From the NCBI GenBank assembly GCA_903813345.2, contig CAIIXF020000009.1, positions 10,782,030-10,846,029 on the forward strand: a stretch of 64,000 bases of DNA. The letters are read 5' to 3'. The notes below the pieces were generated by a model, which was not told where the DNA came from, ran no database searches, and saw nothing but the letters and a program-made list of their open reading frames with translations. Of the stretch, positions 2,364 through 60,100 are shown piece after piece (positions within the stretch are counted from its first letter, which is position 1; each line of letters opens with the position of its first letter). Both the position numbers and the translations under genes were made by a program. The stretch is from Owenia fusiformis (taxonomy: Eukaryota > Annelida > Polychaeta > Sabellida > Oweniidae).

Positions 2364-4476
2364 TAGTTTTTATGGTAACTTTATTTAAACAGTATTAGTA
2401 TACAGCATGAACAGGGCCTAAGCCAAAGCATCATTGGCCCTGTGGGTTACAGCATTTGAATTTACATAGAAGATGGCTCCCCTGTTTGGAGAAATGAACT
2501 GATTGTTTTTGACTCATCATAAATACATGTTATTTTAGACAATTTCTATTATCTTACAAAGAAAATCTGTAAAAGATTTAAAAACTAGACCTTTAATAGA
2601 ATTATTCAATAAAATGTCACCAAACAGGAGAGTATTTGTCTTGTGTTCTAAAGAGCATCTTAGTGAAAAAAAGAAATCAAGTTCAGGTATTATCCTAAGT
2701 TCCCCCCAAAGTTCTTCTCTTTCTCTTAATAATAGTTGAAGATGAGGTACTTAGTAGTTTGGTCTCTGTAACCACATAAACAATTTGGACTGTCAACATT
2801 TCTAAAATTGTGCAGGAAAAAGTGGCCTGTAAAAATAAAATCACATCTAATGCGATTTAGAAGGATTTCACTCTTTCGTGATAATTCTAGCTTAGATGTA
2901 GGTAATGGTAAATCTTTGTCTCGGAAATGTTTTTTAACATTCCTTTTAAAACTAGAATTTTTTTTATTTTCTTTTAGATAATATGGGAGCTTTTCCCATT
3001 CGCGCATTGCTTTTATTATTGGCGATTTAGAAAAGGAGCCAGATGATTTTGGAATATTAAATTCTCTGACATTTCTTAGGTTTATATCTTGAACAGGATT
3101 TCTATGTTGGTCAAAAATTCGTTGGAGATAAGAAGGGACTGTTTTATTTTTTACTTTGTGCATAAGATTTAAGTATTTTTCATGTCTTCTGGTCAAAAGA
3201 TCATTCCAGTTTAGGGATTAAATAGTTTAATTTTTGAAGTTCCCTGAATGCATCCACTTACTAGTAATGCAGCTCTGTAATGTACTTGGTCAAGTTTTGC
3301 AAGATCATATTTGGTGGCTTTTTCGAATAAAATACTTCCATATTCAAGTTTAGGAAGGATAAAGGACAAGTACATTTTTTCAAGATGTTTGGATCTAACT
3401 TTGTTCTTTAAAGCCTTGAAAGGATTCAACATTGTATTACATTTATCAATTACTTCATGTATATGCGAGCTAAAATTTAAGTGTTCATCTAATAACACTC
3501 GTAGGTATTTGTGATTAAATGCTCTGCTGATCCTTTCATTGCTTAAAGAAACAAAAGGGTAATTTAACTGTTTCCTTCTTGACCCCTTAAAAATAATTTC
3601 TACACTTTTGGAAGGTTTAAAATTGGATTTCCATTTAAGGGACCATAATGAAAGTCTGTCGAGGTCTGACTGTAAATTTTTGTGAAGTTCGAAAATATTT
3701 TTACTTCTGTCACATGGAAAGAAAATAGAGCTATCATCAGCATACAGGTATAATTGACTATAATTCAGAGCTTCATTAAGATCATTTATGTAGAGGAGGA
3801 AGCAAAGTGGTCCAATTATGGATCCTTGAGGTATTGAGCTGTTTATAAAGCCATGAGGGGACACTTTTGAGAACTCCCCATTTACTTTTACTTGGAGACA
3901 TCTATTTGACAAGTATGATTTTATTAAGTCAATAATAATTTTAGAAAAGCCATATGATTTTAGTTTCTTTAACAGTAGATAATGAGGGACTCCGTCATAC
4001 GCGGCTTCAATGTCCAAAAAAAATCCTCTTACATCACAGTTATTGTCTATATAATCATCAATCATATTAACAATTGTTATTAATTGTTTTTCAGTACTAT
4101 CTCCTGGAAGAAACCCAGATTGATTTTGATAAATAAGACTGTTTTCAGACACATATTTGAACATATTATTGTATATCACACGTTCAAATATTTTTGAAAA
4201 GTTATTTTATAATGTAATTGGTCTATAATTTTTCGGGTCACACTTGGAACCTTTGTTTTTGAAAATTGGAACAACAATCCCAAGTTTCCAAGAACTTGGA
4301 AATGTATTAAACTCTAAAATCTTTTTAAAAAGGTCAAATAATGGTTGGTCTATGCTATCACAACACATTTTCAACATTTTATTTGTGATTCCATCAGGGC
4401 CACCCTGTTTAGTTGTATTAAGGTCACGCAAAATTTTATTAATATCCTGTTTTGAAAAATCGATTCTTTCTAAACA
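2364..4476 (-). mobile_element. 5'-truncated LINE insertion with 9-bp target duplication
   Basis: The sequence ATTCGAGAT occurs directly on both sides (2355-2363 and 4477-4485), and the interrupted tandem repeat continues outside, so the insertion boundaries are precise. The element lies in minus orientation. Its 3' end, at 2364, has an AATAAA close to the terminus but no long poly(A). It covers only the reverse transcriptase and the C-terminal part of ORF2, so it was truncated at its 5' end on insertion. It is CR1/Jockey-like by its reverse-transcriptase motifs. Confidence 0.85.
2726..4431 (-). pseudogene. LINE ORF2 reverse transcriptase, broken
   Basis: Three blocks can be read. Block 4431-4207 holds GGPDGITNKML and NYRPITL. 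Block 4179-3211 holds QSGFLPGDST, the IPQGSIIGPL fingers/palm motif and the catalytic YADDSS. Block 3196-2726 is the C-terminal domain, with a CxCG zinc-knuckle-like motif. Blocks one and two are in the same frame and are separated by a TAA just after PITL. Blocks two and three are separated by a stop and a frame change near 3205-3215. The His/Cys positions expected after the CxCG are degraded. The copy cannot make a full polymerase and has no endonuclease domain. Confidence 0.85.
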
Positions 4477-4485
4477 ATTCGAGAT

Positions 4486-4870
4486 ATCAACGATTACAAT
4501 TTTTTACGAAAATGGGTGCCATTTTAAATTTCAGTGGCCATCTTGAAAATGTCTTCCTGAGCAGAGCTCCTTTGTCCCTAGGTATTGGCATAAACAATTT
4601 GAACCAAATCGGTCGACTGGTATTTGAGTTATCAAAGATTACATTTTTCAAAAATGGCCGTCATTTTGAATTGAGCAGCCATATTGAAAATTCCTTCTCA
4701 AGTTAAGGTCCTACACCCATAAGCCTGTAAAATGTGAATTCGTGAACCGGTATAAGAGTTATTTCCCGGACAGACGGACGAACGGATGGACGATCGATAC
4801 TAACGAATTAGTGAAAGCATATCACGCCCGGTGATCGTTATTTATTATTGATTTATTATTTTATAAATTC
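4486..4870. repeat. Right half of the split tandem repeat, with GGACAGACGG tail
   Basis: This continues the array cut by the LINE: 'aaatttcagtggccatcttgaaa', 'gcagagctcctttgtccctagg' and 'tttgaaccaaatcggtcgactgg'. It ends in a tail reading gacagacggacgaacggatgg followed by gatcgatac and cacgcccggtgatcg. Tails of this type close many marine-invertebrate repeats. Confidence 0.6.
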
Positions 4871-41013: not shown

Positions 41014-41990
41014 TCAATAAAAAGTCTGTATTGATTGGTAAATGAAGTCCCTCCCGGATCCTGTTCAAAAAGGAAGTAATGGTAGCGAATTTCTTTATTT
41101 TTATTTTTATGTCACCACCAGAAGTGGTGACATATTATGGCTTGTGTGTCCCTCTTTCAACGACTTGTGTATTGCCTGCAGCTTCATGGTGACGACAATA
41201 CATTCTTGCAAAAAGCATCGAAAGCGCAACATATTAGACATAACTCTGACATAGAATGGTCATTCAATTTATCTTTGAGTTATTTTCTAAAATGTCAATG
41301 AATATATAAAATGCTACAACTTTAAAATAAATATTTAAACCCATTGAATTTTGCACCATCTATTGGCGTTCTGAAGATCAATGATTTTGATGAAGGTACA
41401 CCCCCCTTCATTAGTTTGACAACCATATGTTTTATTGGATACCATATCAGAGTCTGCTGGCTTAATTTTGTTCACTCATTACAATAATATGGAAATGGAT
41501 GACTTTGATGAATTTATTGAAATTGCCAAACATAAATAGACAATGATAGGTGATTCAAGAAGGGACTTCCATTTGCCAAACTTATAGAGGGGAGTGTATG
41601 CAGCATTTAGTCCGTGGTTAAAAAACTATATAAACAGCATTAATAACCAAACAAATAAAAAGCAAACATCAAACAGCGAAATACGATACAGCCCTCATGG
41701 AGCACATATACTGACTGAATTGATATACTAACATATTGTGACATTGAGCCTTTTATGTTGGTTTTATTTGTGATTGATGTTTTGCTTTTAAGTTCACTAA
41801 AACTGAAAGGTTAAAATTTTCAAGTGTACTGGTGATTGTACATTCACAATAAATTCCTCAAATTGATATTAGCCCTTCATTTCATTTTAATATCTACCTA
41901 TCTATAATCTTGTGGTTTTGTATGAGAAATTGTATGATTTATTAGGTAAGAAAAGAATGAATAGTTTGTATGAAATTTGCATATATAGAT
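41014..41990. other. Intergenic stretch with a short hairpin repeat
   Basis: GTCACCAC-cagaa-GTGGTGAC at about 41,111 is a perfect 8-bp hairpin; a related 'gccacaacttctggtggc' lies at 63,385. No gene is seen. Confidence 0.4.
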
Positions 41991-41993
41991 ACT

Positions 41994-42740
41994 CTAGGGC
42001 TTGATTGAAAATATTATAGTCAGGGCTTTTTAGGGCTTGATTAAATATATTATAGCCAGGGCTTCTTAGGGCTTGATTGAAAATATTATAGCGAGGGCTT
42101 TTTAGGGCTTGATTGAAAATATTATAGTCAGGGCTTTTTAGGGCTTGTTTGAAAATATTATAGCCAGGGCTTCTTAGGGCTTGATTGAAAATATTATAGC
42201 CAGGGCTTCTTAGGGCTTGATTGAAAATATTATAGCCTGGGCTTTTTAGGGTTTGTTTGTAAATATTATAGCCAGGGCTTCTTAGGGCTTGTTTGAAAAT
42301 ATTATAGCCAGGGCTTCTTAGGGCTTGATTGAAAATATTATAGCCAGGGCTTCTTAGGGCTTGTTTGAAAATATTATAGCCAGGGCTTCTTAGGGCTTGT
42401 TTGAAAATATTATAGCCAGGGCTTCTTAGGGCTTGATTGAAAATATTATAGCCAGGGGTTCTTAGGGCTTGTTTGAAAATATTATAGCCAGGGCTTCTTA
42501 GGGCTTGTTTGAAAATATTATAGCCAGGGCTTCTTAGGGCTTGTTTGAAAATATTATAGCCAGGCCGGGCTTCTTAGGGCTTGATTGAAAATATTATAGC
42601 CAGGGCTCCTTTGGGCTTGATTGAAAATATTATAGCCAGGGCTACTTAGGGCTTGTTTGAAAATATTATAGCCAGGCCTCCTTAGGGCTTGTTTGAAAAT
42701 GTTATGGCCAGGGCTTGATCGAAAATATTAAAGCTAGTGC
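41994..42740. repeat. 36-bp tandem array, ~20 copies
   Basis: The unit is agggcttgattgaaaatatt followed by atagccagggcttctt. Two main variants alternate irregularly (ttgattg and ttgtttg). The edge copies are the most diverged. It is intergenic between HIF1AN and the claudin-like gene. Confidence 0.93.
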
Positions 42741-44033: not shown

Positions 44034-47000
44034 ATGGCTAAAACTTCACTCTCAAGTTTTAAACCCGCTGCAGGGATGATTTTGATATTCCTGGGGGCGG
44101 GGTTGTGTATTGGAGCGCTTGTGACCACAGGATGGCTCGTTGATTGGTCATTCCGTCCTAGGACTGGAGAAACTAGTCGACATAAAGGATACGGCTTGTT
44201 CCAAGTTTGCGATGTTGCCTTCTTAACAACTTTCGGAGTGAACCTTGATTGCGAAACTGTTGCTTCTAAATTAGGTAAGAAAATATGAAAATAAGTCAAC
44301 TCACATTGCAGTCATTTTAGGGAATGAGATTTGTGCTAATATTCCATTTGTTATTACTATAATGAGCATACATTAGCCAGGCCAATAGCCAAAAAGTTAT
44401 TAATTAAGATATTTGTTTGAAACTGAAAAGAGGCCTATTATTGATTTTACATTATACCCAGTTTTTGCCTCACCTATTTAGGTTTGCCTCACTTATTTAA
44501 ATTTGCCTCGTCTATTTCTGGATCTTGGCAATGCCCTTGAATAAATTTCTAGAGGACCCATAGCTGTATACATGACGTAGGCAATGTTGTAGTATCCCCC
44601 TAAACAAATGTGTAATCTCTGAGTATAAGGTGACAAATGATGGGGGATGTGATACATACTATACCATTGCCTATGGGAAATTGCATTACTTTATTGTATT
44701 ATATATGAACTTTTTCATTTACCCTGAATCACATCACTTAGTCACACCATCCTCTGAGATTATCAGATGATTTTACAATTTTTGTACTGATATGATCTTA
44801 ATGGGCTCCTTTGAATGAACCACATGAAGCTCTCTTTTAAGAAATGAAATAAAAGTATTAATTGGTAAGGGTATCACACATGCAATACTTTCATGTAACA
44901 TATGATTGCCTGCTAACCTATTATTTGTGTATTTAATAAATTTGAGTAAACGGTAAATTACAGCTAAATTACAGTACATACCTTACAGAGGGGGGGGGGG
45001 GGGGGGGGGGGCTTTACAATAACGGGGAAACAGGGAGTTAGGTGAAGATGAAGTCGTGGTCTCTGAGTTTAAATTAAGGGAATTTAAAATATTCACATCA
45101 GTGTACATTTGAACTTTGTAAAAGCATGTGCATTGCTTGGAAAATTATTTTATTGAAAATACACCTGTGAGCTTTTCTGATTTTTAGCTGCATTGCATGT
45201 TTTGGCAGTAGCTATGTGTTAAACTGCATAACATTTTAAGGTAGCCTGCACAATGAAAATTTAGTCAATTTTTTTATAATTATAATAATCACTAATGATT
45301 AATTAAATGGGTAATATTTTCAAAATTTTAGGTTGATTTTACCTGTTATGGAAAAATACATAATTCAAAATGAAAACTTATCAATGAAATGTTATGAATA
45401 CATTCTCTACATTATTGTTTCAACTTTTAAGTGAAGGTGCAGATTCACCTTAAGCTGGCTGTATAACTTAATCATGAATGTTGTCAATATTGGCAAAGTC
45501 TTTAATATAAATAATGTCAATATGTCCTTAATACTAAAGTGTACAAAACCCAGGTGTGGAAAATGTATATAACAGAATATCTGAATATCCATGCTTTTAA
45601 CTCTATTTCATTTTGTTAATGTGAAACTTTAGTAGTATTGATGTGAATACTTTCTGATGTGAACACTTTCTGATGTGAACACTTTCTCACGTGACCACTT
45701 TCCAATGTGAACACTTTCTCATATGAACAATTTCTCATGTGAACACTTTCTCATGTGAACAATTTCCAATGTGAACACTTTCTCATGTGAACAGTTTCTC
45801 GTGTGAACAATTTCTAATGTGAACACTTTCTCATTTGAACACTTTCTCATGTGAACACTTCTTGAACAGAATTTGAAAACATCTTGTTGCTTTTAATATT
45901 GCTAACCATTGAGATATTATTCACTGTGGGATGTTTTCCTTTACTTTCAGACCCATGGCTGCTAACCATTGAGATATTATTCACTGTTGGATGTTTTCCT
46001 TTACTTTCAGACCCATGGCTGCTAACCATTGAGGTATTATTCACTGTTGGATGTTTTCCTTTACTTTCAGACCCATGGCTGCTAACCATTGAGATATTAT
46101 TCACTGTTGGATGTTTTCCTTTACTTTCAGACCCATGGCTGCTAACCATTGAGATATTATTCACTGTTGGATGTTTTCCTTTACTTCCAGACCCATGGCT
46201 GCTAACCATTGAGATATTATTCACTGTTGGATTTTTCCTTTACTTTCAGACCCATGGCTGCTAACCATTGAGATATCATTCACTGTTGGATGTTTTCCTT
46301 TACTTTCAGACCCATGGCTGCTAACCATTGAGATATCATTCACTGTTGGATGTTTTTCTTTACTTTCAGACCCATGGCTGCTAACCATTGAGATATTATT
46401 CACTGTTGGATGTTTTCCTTAACTTTCAGACCCATGGCTGCTTACCATTGAGATATCATTCACTGTTGGATGTTTTCCTTTACTTTCAGACCCATGGCTG
46501 CTAACCATTGAGATATCATTCACTGTTGAATGTTTTCCTTTACTTTCAGACCCATGGCTGCTAACCATTGAGATATTATTCACTGTTGGATGTTTTCCTT
46601 TACTTTCAGACCCATGGCTGCTAACCATTGAGATATTATTCACTGTTGGATGTTTTCCTTTACTTTCAGACCCATGGCTGCTAACTATTGAGATATCATT
46701 CACTGTTGGATGTTTTCCTTTACTTCCAGACCCATGGCTGCTAACCATTGAGATATTATTCACTGTTGGATGTTTTCCTTTACTTTCAGACCCATGGCTG
46801 CTAACCATTGAGATATTATTCACTGTTGGATGTTTTCCTTTACTTTCAGACCCATGGCTGCTAACCATTGAGATATTATTCACTGTTGGATGTTTTCCTT
46901 TACTTTCAGACCCATGGCTGCTAACTATTGAGATATCATTCACTGTTGGATGTTTTCCTTTACTTTCAGACCCATGGCTGCTAACCATTGAGATATTATT

Positions 47001-48475
47001 CACTGTTGGATGTTTTCCTTTACTTTCAGACCCATGGCTGCTAACCATTGAGATATTATTCACTGTTGGATGTTTTCCTTTACTTTCAGACCCATGGCTG
47101 CTAACTATTGAGATATCATTCACTGTTGGATGTTTTCCTTTACTTTCAGACCCATGGCTGCTAACCATTGAGATATTATTCACTGTTGGATGTTTTCCTT
47201 TACTTTCAGACCCATGGCTGCTAACCATTGAGCTATTATTCACTGTTGGATGTTTTCCTTTACTTTCAGACCAATGGCTGCTAACCATTGAGATATCATT
47301 CACTGTTGGATGTTTTCCTTTACTTTCAGACCCATGGCTGCTAACCATTGAGATATTATTCACTGTTGGATGTTTTCCTTTACTTTCAGACCCATGGCTG
47401 CTAACCATTGAGATATCATTCACTGTTGGATGTTTTCCTTTACTTTCAGACCCATGGCTGCTAACCATTGAGATATCATTCACTGTTGAATGTTTTCCTT
47501 TACTTTCAGACCCATGGCTGCTAACAATTGAGATATTATTCACTGTTGGATGTTTTCCTTTACTTTCAGACCCATGGCTGCTAACCATTGAGATATTATT
47601 CACTGTTGGGTGTGCTTGTGCTGTTGTCAGTTTCATCACACTTGTTGCTGGTTCAGTAAGGAGAAAGAGAAAGTTGGGCAAAGCAGGAACTTTTGATCTG
47701 GGATTCTCTCTTTGCTGCATTGCTTTTGCAGGTAAGTACAATATACATTTATTTCAAGTAGGTACAATGTTCAGTTATTGTATACAATATACAATCATTG
47801 CAGGCTGGAACAATACATGATTATTGCAGGTAGGTAAAATACAGAATACTTGCAGGTATTGTAATCAGGTACAATATCAGCTTTTCTCAGGTAGGTAATA
47901 TACAATCATTGCAAGTAGGTACAATACATATTGCAGGTAGGTACTTGACCTTTCGCTTATTTTGATAAAAATTTACCTTAATGTTTTACTTCATATTGAC
48001 AATATTTCCTCCAAATACTTAGTTGCCTAAATTATGATTTCTTGGCCTCAATAATAAACACAATTGCCTCACTGAAAAACACAATTGCTTCACTGAAAAA
48101 CACAATTGCCTCACTGATAAACATATTTGCCTCACTGAAAAACAATTCCTTCTGAAGAATTCTCCATGTATACAGATGTAAGCAAAATTGTATAGACAAT
48201 AATGTTACCCTTGTATTGCCACATAATATTTTTCTTTTTCCTTAAAAATTATGAATTTTGTTTCAGTTCTGCTGATGTTCTTCTCCATGGTGTTGTACTT
48301 CGCCAAGTTCAAGATTATCTATAATGACGACAATCTCAGCACGGACTTCTTTAGTTACTCATTTGCTCTTGGGATGATTGGATGCTTGTTTTTACTCATC
48401 GGTGGCATATTCGTCAAACTCAGCATCGAGGATATCAAGAAACAAAATTTCGACGAAGTGGCTTTAGTGTCATAG
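44034..48475 (+). CDS. Claudin/PMP22-like four-TM protein, 3 exons
   Basis: Coding exons are 44034-44274, 47570-47731 and 48267-48475, joined in frame to 203 residues. Membrane spans lie at about 13-35, 84-108, 125-148 and 165-184, with both termini cytoplasmic. The first outer loop has W38, then G54-L55-F56, C59 and C73, close to the claudin W..GLW..C..C pattern with Phe in place of the third Trp. Basic RRKRK follows TM2. Claudins and PMP22 relatives form junctions or tetraspan membrane complexes; which branch this belongs to cannot be told. Intron 1 (phase 1) ends in 28 tandem copies of its own 3' splice site plus exon start. The choice of the last acceptor as the normal one is inference: only it leads straight into non-repeated coding sequence. 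AATAAA lies at 48573. Confidence 0.85.
44988..45011 (+). repeat. G tract of more than 20 bases in intron 1
   Basis: An unbroken run of more than 20 G lies in the sense strand of the claudin-like intron 1. In RNA it could form a G-quadruplex. Length in the assembly may be unreliable. Shorter G or C runs occur at 19,261, 29,085, 31,026 and 40,661. Confidence 0.85.
45639..45865. repeat. 16-bp tandem array, ~14 copies
   Basis: The unit atgtgaacactttctc, with variants (caatttctc, actttccaa), lies 35 bp before the 60-bp splice-site array in the same intron. The units are more diverged than those of the neighbouring array. Confidence 0.88.
45901..47600 (+). repeat. 28 x 60-bp array of 3' splice site plus exon 2 start
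   Basis: Each unit reads ctaaccattgagatattatt, cactgttggatgttttcctt, tactttcagacccatggctg. In sense this is coding start (DPWLLTIEILFTVGC), a pyrimidine tract and ..ttactttcag. The final copy runs into the unique rest of exon 2 at about 47,600. CTAAC, a branch-point-like motif, comes from the coding part and lies about 45 nt before the next AG. All units are 60 nt except one of 59 (about 46,222). One unit has TAA in frame at 46420. Units differ by single bases (TTATTC/TCATTC, ttgga/ttgaa). Confidence 0.95.
47732..47950. repeat. Degenerate repeat of the exon 2 donor region
   Basis: Just after the exon 2 donor (TTTTGCAG|gtaagtacaatat) come several copies of 'ttgcaggtaggtacaatatac' in varied form, at about 47,755, 47,800, 47,825, 47,855, 47,885 and 47,935. 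They repeat the last exon bases (TTGCAG) and the donor (GTAGGT), so each is a possible decoy 5' splice site. Divergence is high. Confidence 0.6.
48050..48140. repeat. ~20-bp array 'acacaattgcctcactgaaaa', 4 copies
   Basis: Four near copies lie in intron 2 of the claudin-like gene. A related 'tttgcctcacttattta' set lies in intron 1 at about 44,465-44,515. Confidence 0.7.
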
Positions 48476-57100: not shown

Positions 57101-60100
57101 CAAACTGGACAAGATTTAGATGATTATAAAAATATTCAATCTTGACCTGTCCAAACCACATTCTAAACCTAGTGTTTATTAACAGTTTGAAGACCATAAG
57201 ATTTTACCAATTCAAAGTAGTGAAAAGTGTGATGCAAAAAGATAAACTATGATGTACAAATGTTTTGCTAAAACCATCCTAAAAGAAACCCACCACAGAA
57301 TGGACAAATATACTATCATATTAATCAGATCTAATTGAATCATATCTATGTCAGATCTAAAATCTAACCCTGTATATCCTGGAATATTGGCACAAAGGGT
57401 CAACTATGGAGCATTAATAAAACTTTTTACCACCAAATGAAAATCAAGGATAGTGAAACTCGTATAACATAGTTTTTCTTCAAACTTTAATGGTACATTT
57501 ATTGTTTTTATTGTTTCGAGCAACAAGTTTGAAAGAAAACTTCATGGTATGAGACACACAATCTTTGATTTTCTTACACCTGGTAGTTTCATTACGCCCC
57601 ATAGTTGACCATGTGTGAACATATTTTCTAACCCTGTGCTGTTTGTATACCTGATCTGCGTCAAAATGATGGGCATTATCCTCCCAAACATTATACTGCC
57701 AGTTAGAATAAAATTGGATTCAACTAATATATTAATCAAATCAGTTTGGGAAAAGCAAAATAATTATAAACTAAAATTGCACAATTAACTGAGAAATGCG
57801 GGAAACATAAGGTTTAATTATTAAACGCAAAGAACGAATTCCAAAGACTACTGATCTGAAAATATCCTACCTGCGCAAGAATATTAGTGCACTGTTGTAA
57901 TAGGGAGACTGGTGGGTTACCAAGACTGGTTGCTAACTGGACCCTTAATAGCTGTTCTTTCTGGGTGGTATTGTCCACTATAGAGTGTAGAAGTGCCACT
58001 GCTGCAAACCAGGTTGAGAGGGTATCTGTACTGAATAACCCGCCACATAGCAACTGCCCTGCTGATATGGTGTTGGCTAGAAACAAAAATGTAATATGTA
58101 AATTTACAGGAATCAAAACTAGAGTACAAAGGTGACGGGCTATAGAAGTAATCCATATTGATACCTGAAATGTGCCATGAGATGTGAGTTTGTGATAAAC
58201 TCATATCATACAAGTGAAAAAGACATGTTTTCTGCAATACATTAGACAGTATAATGCAGACCTACCACTACCTTCTACTTTATTCAACTGCATATCAAAT
58301 ATTGCATCTACCCTTCGTTGATTATATTTTCTTTATTGTTAAATCTAAAACAATATAACTAATGTACAATATTTAGCTGTTTTATTAAATCCAATCCCTA
58401 CAAAACATGCAGAAAATGACCACACTGAAAGATTTCCCCCAACCTTTTAATCTCAAAAATGACTTATTTGAAAAGGGAGGAACATGTTTCTGGAAAACAC
58501 CTGGAACTATAATTTGTGAAACTCAAAAGTCTTCAAAATACAAATATTGTAGTTTATTACAATTGTTCTATCATTTGATACAACTGAATTTCACAAATCT
58601 TAAATCAAGCTATTTTTGAGAAATAGACTTGAATCATATTACAGTCTGGCATTACATACAATTTAATCTAAAAAGATGCACATATGCAATTCCAATACCA
58701 ATAATGTACCTAAATTAAACTACACTTTTCTGAAGTACCCACTAACAATATCCAAAAGTCAACCCATATCAAAATACAAGATAGATTTCAAACAATTTGT
58801 ATATAAATTCGATCATGCATTTATACAAAAATAACTCCAAGATAAACATGCATAGAATGTGCAGACTTTTTGCCGAAAGTGCATTTTAATGTGCAATTAT
58901 TTTATGAAGCATAGCCATCAGATTTACTTCAACCTTATTTCATTTTGCATTATTGAATCGTTATCACATCAACTGTTACCAAAAGAATTTTTAGGGACAT
59001 CTTTAAATTAAATTATATGGAAGTGAAACAGATAACAGGAATAAAGATCATCTTACATTAAACACAAGGACGAAGCACAGACGTACAAATCATTAATTAT
59101 CTTACTTAATTTTTTTAAATTGGTTCATATTATTTTAATGATATAAATGATTTTGTGAAATATTTTCCTTAATTAACTAACAGTAACACAAAAGGAAATT
59201 TGTAAAAAGGGGACTAGAAAACTACAGGTGCATTACATAGTCTTATATCTGAATAGAGAATTTCTTCATCCTGAATCACAGAATCATCCATAATAATTCC
59301 TCTCCATTTCTTAAACATATACTTTCAACTCCACACTTTTCCACTCTATTTTCATTGAAAGACACAACCCTTGTCAAATTGTTGTCATGGTTATATTGGC
59401 TTGACCTCTAGTTTACTTACCCTGGCATTCTAGAATAAAAAATAAATGCAAAACATGCTTGAATCATTGTCATGGTAACAAAAGTTTTAGGGATTGAGAT
59501 TGAAAAGATCTGTCAACATTCCACAGGTCATCATTTTGGAAGTTAACAACAACAAAGTGCAAGAATGACATCAAAACATAAAGATCACAAAGTTTACTGG
59601 GTTGCGCTATTAAATCTTCGTGCCTTAACTTTTGACTCCATTCCAAAGCCACAATTTGTTTACATTTAAACCTTGGCTGAAAAACATGAATTTTTACGCT
59701 TATGGTCGAAAACTTCCTGCAGATTCAACAGATCTCCTCTCTAAAAAATATTTTGACATGAAGCAGAAAATAAAATGTGTCAAAAGCAACTAATGCACAT
59801 AAGAGGAGGAAATACCCAGAGTTCCTAGATGAAACTATCTTCATGAAAACATGAACCTCTAAATAGGTTCACCTCTGAATTCTGGGAATAGTCTCCCCTC
59901 TCAATTTAGTGTTCTATTTTCATTTGTAACTACAGGCACTAATCAGACTCAATAATACGTACAGAATACAAAAGCTTAATTTTCATGGTGACAGCACAGA
60001 AATTGTAAACTTAAGTCTTGCTGTGTGTAAATGCTCTTAGTTATTCAGCAATTAGGTTTTGAATTACTTAAAGAGGATATACAATGGGAGCATTTTCTTC

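Follow-up and report, generated by a model that had tools for sequence, protein, structure and literature searches.

We analysed a 64,000-nucleotide stretch of the genome of the annelid Owenia fusiformis (assembly GCA_903813345.2, contig CAIIXF020000009.1, positions 10,782,030 to 10,846,029 of the forward strand), hereafter called the window, in which positions are counted from its first letter. It carries a predicted claudin-like gene whose junction between intron 1 and exon 2 is spanned by an array of 60-bp tandem repeats that presents 28 successive copies of a candidate acceptor site. We consider this array to be probably (at a probability of roughly 0.7) a tolerated splice-boundary minisatellite of the type described in amphioxus under the name of mirage; splicing would mostly go to the acceptor nearest to the exon and might leak to the few that come next.

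Anatomy of the 60-bp acceptor array

The array was delimited with Tandem Repeats Finder (TRF; Table 1). Each unit consists of 44 nt of exon 2 and 16–20 intronic nt that end in an acceptor AG. The candidate acceptors (CAG/ACC, the slash marking the cut) run from 45951 to 47570 and have kept the AG in 28 cases out of 28; the distance from one to the next is 60 nt in 26 of the 27 intervals and 59 nt in the remaining one (unit 5, 46191-46249). All 28 are preceded by a pyrimidine tract, and 23 of them share the same sequence over the 20 nt that precede the cut. A CTAAC motif is found 20–60 nt upstream of 27 acceptors, its place being taken by CTTAC for the last one, and for each acceptor this motif sits in the preceding exon copy. 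In the unit consensus, the adenine of CTAAC is placed 45 nt ahead of the final base of the acceptor AG. An earlier AG begins 7 nt past this adenine, which is probably too close for use, and no further one intervenes. Since the exonic piece brings the CTAAC and the intronic piece brings the pyrimidine tract and the AG, every copy holds on paper all the elements of a 3' splice site, and we infer that the CTAAC would serve as branch point. The original prediction of 28 tandem 3' splice-site modules in 60-bp units, each with a branch-like CTAAC, a pyrimidine tract and an AG, is borne out (apart from the CTTAC and the 59-bp unit 5), and its description of the array is completed by a shortened unit located ahead of acceptor 1.

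A DNA search of the assembly returned at least 29 matches, all on contig C9 at the array and exon 2, and no second haplotype copy of the locus was found in the assembly searches.

The claudin-like gene

The host gene, as modelled from the sequence, comprises three exons on the plus strand and is predicted to code for a 203 amino acid protein. Both introns are in phase 1, the first one being 3,295 nt long, and the last copy of the 60-bp array makes up the initial 44 nt of exon 2. The best genomic match of exon 1 is 99%. The predicted protein displays four hydrophobic spans and, at residues 34-73, the pattern W...GL[WF]xxC...C (here W...GLF..C...C), which is, written with loose spacing, the first-loop pattern of the PMP22/claudin family. 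The PMP22/claudin profile (PF00822) could be aligned from position 9 to 160 out of 161 with a score of 15.8 bits, below the curated cut-off of 26.7 (E = 0.014), and a phmmer search against PDB with E values up to 10 gave no claudin, the only matches being four pentatricopeptide chains (best E = 0.064). The product is for this report named claudin-like and not claudin. The search for paralogues elsewhere in the assembly led to one weak match (contig C10, E = 0.147). A run of 22 G is also present in intron 1 (44990-45011).

Reading frame through the array

When exon 1 is connected to exon 3 through acceptors 9–28, the predicted proteins range from 583 down to 203 amino acids in steps of 20. The 59-bp length of unit 5 throws acceptors 1–5 out of frame, and acceptors 6–8 stop early at a TAA. 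None of these eight gives a full-length protein, so that a working gene cannot depend on the first acceptor reached. Both parts of what had been predicted from the letters, i.e. a frame open from the acceptor before 46,430 over 19 units and a frameshift or a TAA for acceptors 1–8, are confirmed.

An open frame is weak evidence in such an array, since a repeat unit divisible by three stays open wherever one unit is open. On each strand, one frame of the unit consensus is open, and the minus strand over the array contains an open stretch of 444 amino acids. TRF rows with a period of at least 12 bp were used as a control; they were taken from the window and from 61 other loci of this genome (L007-L067), which correspond to 10 of the 19 listed matches for globin, 8 of 30 for ADH, 25 of 106 for p450 and 18 of 29 for tetraspanin. 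Among the 101 rows (overlapping rows and the 60-bp array included), the period is a multiple of three in 31, and in 21 of these 31 the consensus is open in at least one frame. The proportion varies with the period: 17/17 at 12–30 bp, 4/7 at 31–99 bp (the 60-bp array included) and 0/7 at 100 bp or more; the other rows of the 31–99 bp class with a consensus truly divisible by three are open in 3/3 cases. As a control, this comparison is strong where units are short and small where they approach 60 bp.

The 20 amino acid block coded by one unit, which duplicates the beginning of span 2, has a mean Kyte-Doolittle value of 1.33. Adding one to three such blocks leaves the protein with the same four spans and no separate one (19-residue threshold of 1.6), which makes the proposed membrane-span-like character of the block marginal.

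A 36-bp minisatellite (19.9 copies, 41995-42716) ends 1.3 kb before the ATG of the claudin-like gene. It overlaps a minus-strand frame of 223 amino acids (41902-42573), where the repeat structure yields the open frame.

Variation among the units

Sequence variants were compared in the 26 units of 60 bp among units 1–27, unit 5 being omitted for its deletion. The 11 variant types fall into 3 synonymous, 7 missense and 1 stop, against a neutral expectation of about 3.4, 7.1 and 0.5, respectively (transitions weighted 4 to 1). In the 19 in-frame units there are 8 substitution types, for which the chance of observing no stop is 0.68. The variants look neutral and do not point to selection acting on the coded blocks, the power of the test being small. 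In units 6–27, units at lag 3 resemble each other more than when their order is shuffled (2000 shuffles, 0.4%; lag 3 being the best of the 8 lags tested), as expected if blocks of several units were duplicated.

Apparent duplication on the donor side of exon 2

Decayed copies of the donor site follow exon 2 (Table 1), the copied context being TTGCAG/GTAAGTACAATATACA. At a match of at least 14/22, this context was found at 27 other plus-strand places in the window, 7 of them within 219 nt after the true donor. Over the whole window, 39 such places exist on the minus strand, and the excess of donor copies is thus one of clustering and not of total number. The motif CAGGTA, present 17 times on the plus strand of the 64 kb, occurs 6 times at 47729-47934, the true donor counted. 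Fifteen other GTA or GTG there were tried as donors: 13 lead to an early stop, and the other two, after 47761 and after 47779, would keep the frame and lengthen the protein by 10 or 16 residues. Both edges of exon 2 appear to have been tandemly duplicated, the right array being decayed and the left one homogeneous.

Table 1. Coordinates in the window of the claudin-like gene model, the 60-bp array and adjacent repeats
Feature	Position	Strand	Remarks
Exon 1, coding part	44034..44274	+	From ATG 44034 to donor AG/GTAAGA; ends in phase 1
16-bp minisatellite	45641..45860	+	TRF, 13.8 copies; ends ~40 bp before the 60-bp array, within intron 1
Splice-boundary array	45900..47613	+	TRF: period 60, 28.6 copies, 97% matches, 0% indels
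Shortened first unit	45900..45930	+	Holds the CTAAC upstream of acceptor 1; carries its own variant
Units of acceptors 1–5	45951..46249	+	Out of frame
Units of acceptors 6–8	46250..46429	+	Reach TAA 46420-46422 in unit 8
In-frame units (acceptors 9–27, n = 19)	46430..47569	+	20 amino acids each if included
Exon 2 from the exon-proximal acceptor	47570..47731	+	162 nt, phase 1-1
Decayed donor-site copies (CAGGTAGGTACAAT-like)	47752..47952	+	Just past the true donor; TRF rows 47797-47858 and 47888-47944
Exon 3, coding part	48267..48475	+	To stop TAG 48473-48475

Proposed mechanism and alternative explanations

In the scenario that we favour, the end of intron 1 (its last 16–20 nt) and the start of exon 2 (44 nt) would have been duplicated in tandem, and the unit could have been multiplied and kept uniform by unequal exchange and by duplication of local blocks. 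The spliceosome would then be offered 28 nearly equal acceptors. The neutral-looking variants, the lag-3 similarity, the published mirages, the old donor-side copies at exon 2 and the failure of acceptors 1–8 to yield a full-length protein speak for this scenario. In genes with long introns, exon definition favours short exons beside a donor. Exon 2 would measure 162 nt with the last acceptor, 222 nt with the one before, and then 282 and 342 nt. Given the length of intron 1, the spliceosome most likely recognises exon 2 by exon definition, paired with its donor at 47731, and this should favour acceptor 47570. The next few upstream acceptors may see low-level use, which would add 20-residue blocks to the protein.

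Several observations weigh against this scenario. The AG and the pyrimidine tract are kept at all 28 acceptors, and acceptor sequence consequently gives no ground for picking the last one. The variant test, from which the neutral appearance of the units derives, has little power. The two disrupting changes, the indel of unit 5 and the stop of unit 8, are confined to the first 8 of the 27 units, none being found in the last 19; the chance of both falling there is 28/351 = 0.08 (judged post hoc), and this placement is a slight argument for use of the downstream units. Finally, none of the 61 other loci has a tandem array (period of at least 7) overlapping the matched coding stretch, the nearest lying 78 bp away; in this sample several loci come from one gene and the best-scoring matches, hence longer exons, are favoured, with match ends that are not proven exon edges. 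Six further loci were left outside this count, five from the claudin-like gene itself and one weak match (L001-L006). There is therefore no hint of a general boundary-array habit in this genome, where boundary arrays are not frequent at a sampling of 61 loci.

The original prediction had proposed two alternatives, a switch producing splice products of variable length or a minisatellite that the gene must tolerate. The second has gained from the fit to mirages and from the neutral-looking variants; the open-frame argument for the first is weak. Production of length-variable isoforms, with exon 1 joined to several of the last 20 acceptors and 0–19 extra 20 amino acid blocks placed before span 2, would account for acceptors 9–28 being all in frame, for the full signals at all acceptors and for the restriction of disruptions to the first eight units. 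However, the unit variants give no sign of coding constraint, an open frame comes cheap (as seen on the minus strand and in other in-phase arrays), the block is no clear membrane span, the longer exons of 222, 282 and 342 nt are expected to be less favoured, and amphioxus mirages are reportedly spliced regularly (PMC3087553). We judge such isoforms unlikely. A bolder form, in which the choice among the last 20 acceptors, stochastic or controlled, acts as a molecular ruler that makes a ladder of membrane proteins, with array-length polymorphism setting the ladder, is quite improbable in our opinion; it would mirror, with acceptors, the donor array of IFI6 discussed below.

Two other explanations were considered. 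Acceptors 1–8 could act as poison sites leading to mRNA decay, or the 28 pyrimidine tracts could titrate splicing factors, array length tuning expression in either case. The early stops obtained from acceptors 1–8 and the pyrimidine tract that accompanies each of the 28 acceptors (over 20 nt, 23 of these have one and the same sequence) go in that direction, but the frameshift and the stop are one change each in an array that is homogeneous elsewhere, and we hold this kind of control to be very unlikely. The array could also be an assembly artefact, tandem arrays being hard to assemble and a second haplotype copy not having been found, or the gene could have fallen out of use. The existence of a single locus with ordered internal variants and a block pattern, and an intact frame of 203 amino acids with four hydrophobic spans and the W-GLF-C-C pattern, make both of these highly improbable. 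A tolerated boundary minisatellite is the explanation that we retain. If the gene is transcribed, the locus would constitute a natural competition among 28 near-identical 3' splice sites differing mainly in position, and junction counts would show how position and exon length decide the choice of acceptor.

Neighbouring features

A reverse-transcriptase match (PF00078, E = 5e-21) was found in the frame 3214-4206, within 2729-4503 on the minus strand; the two frames adjoining 3214-4206 have no Pfam match at E = 0.01. An open frame at 57817-58200 (minus strand) matches the Uso1/p115 head region (PF04869, E = 3.4e-9), which indicates a p115-like gene downstream of the claudin-like gene. Outside the window, the region C6:27033687-27081772 contains three matches over cut-off to Eryth_link_C (PF16915), presumably the annelid haemoglobin-linker domain, beside four globin matches, and is perhaps an annelid extracellular haemoglobin locus. 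Assembly searches for COX1, as the mark of a mitochondrial contig, and for the GFP family gave no match; for GFP the control had no match either, so that absence is not demonstrated.

Comparison with known systems

The comparisons below are drawn from excerpts of the papers cited. For human IFI6 (6-16/G1P3), Turri et al. reportedly described in 1995 a minisatellite with multiple splice donor sites. More than one of these sites is reported to be used (PMC4526556), and IFI6 is the nearest case that we found with several copies reportedly in use. In IFI6 and in the present array alike, a minisatellite bordering an exon presents several successive splice sites, through which residues coded by the repeat could be added to the protein; the difference is that the sites are donors in IFI6 and predicted acceptors here. 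Human genes in segmental duplications have variable internal tandem repeats that change exon/intron structure (PMC2812944); this is minisatellite expansion in genes, as here, and the excerpts of that paper mention no array of complete 3' splice sites. Repeat arrays are also found in intron 1 of earthworm metallothionein genes (PMC12783039). These are annelid intronic minisatellites too, located inside the first intron, with no copies of a splice boundary mentioned in the excerpts.

The closest resemblance is with the mirages of amphioxus. BflGb6 contains tandem copies of the 3' end of an intron with the 5' part of an exon, and BflGb9 tandem copies of the 3' boundary of an exon, both reportedly with regular splicing (PMC3087553). 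Somatic instability is reported for the mirage of amphioxus Adh3, and other amphioxus loci are cited (PMC3087553). There are 60- and 108-bp cases in PGBD5, the copy number of which differs between two assembly versions, and the Adh and troponin C mirages are said to generate no aberrant mRNAs (PMC3902484). Our literature search, which covered open-licence papers, found no boundary array of the present kind reported outside amphioxus. As in Adh3, BflGb6, BflGb9, PGBD5 and troponin C, where either side of the exon can be concerned, the repeats described here are copies of an exon–intron boundary, and their 60-bp unit falls within the mirage range of 10 to 160 bp, which includes the 60-bp case of PGBD5. 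Splice signals are present in many, not all, mirage copies, and AG is found here in 28/28; the present array has 28 copies, compared with 6 and 3 in two BflGb6 haplotypes. Unlike the mirages, it has an annelid and not a cephalochordate as its host, and its unit keeps the reading frame over 19 copies. By its anatomy, and with an exon that belongs to a gene model, the array is of the mirage kind. It extends to an annelid a phenomenon that we found described, in the open-licence literature, only in cephalochordates, and it allows the published proposal that repeats of this type give rise to new introns to be tested there.

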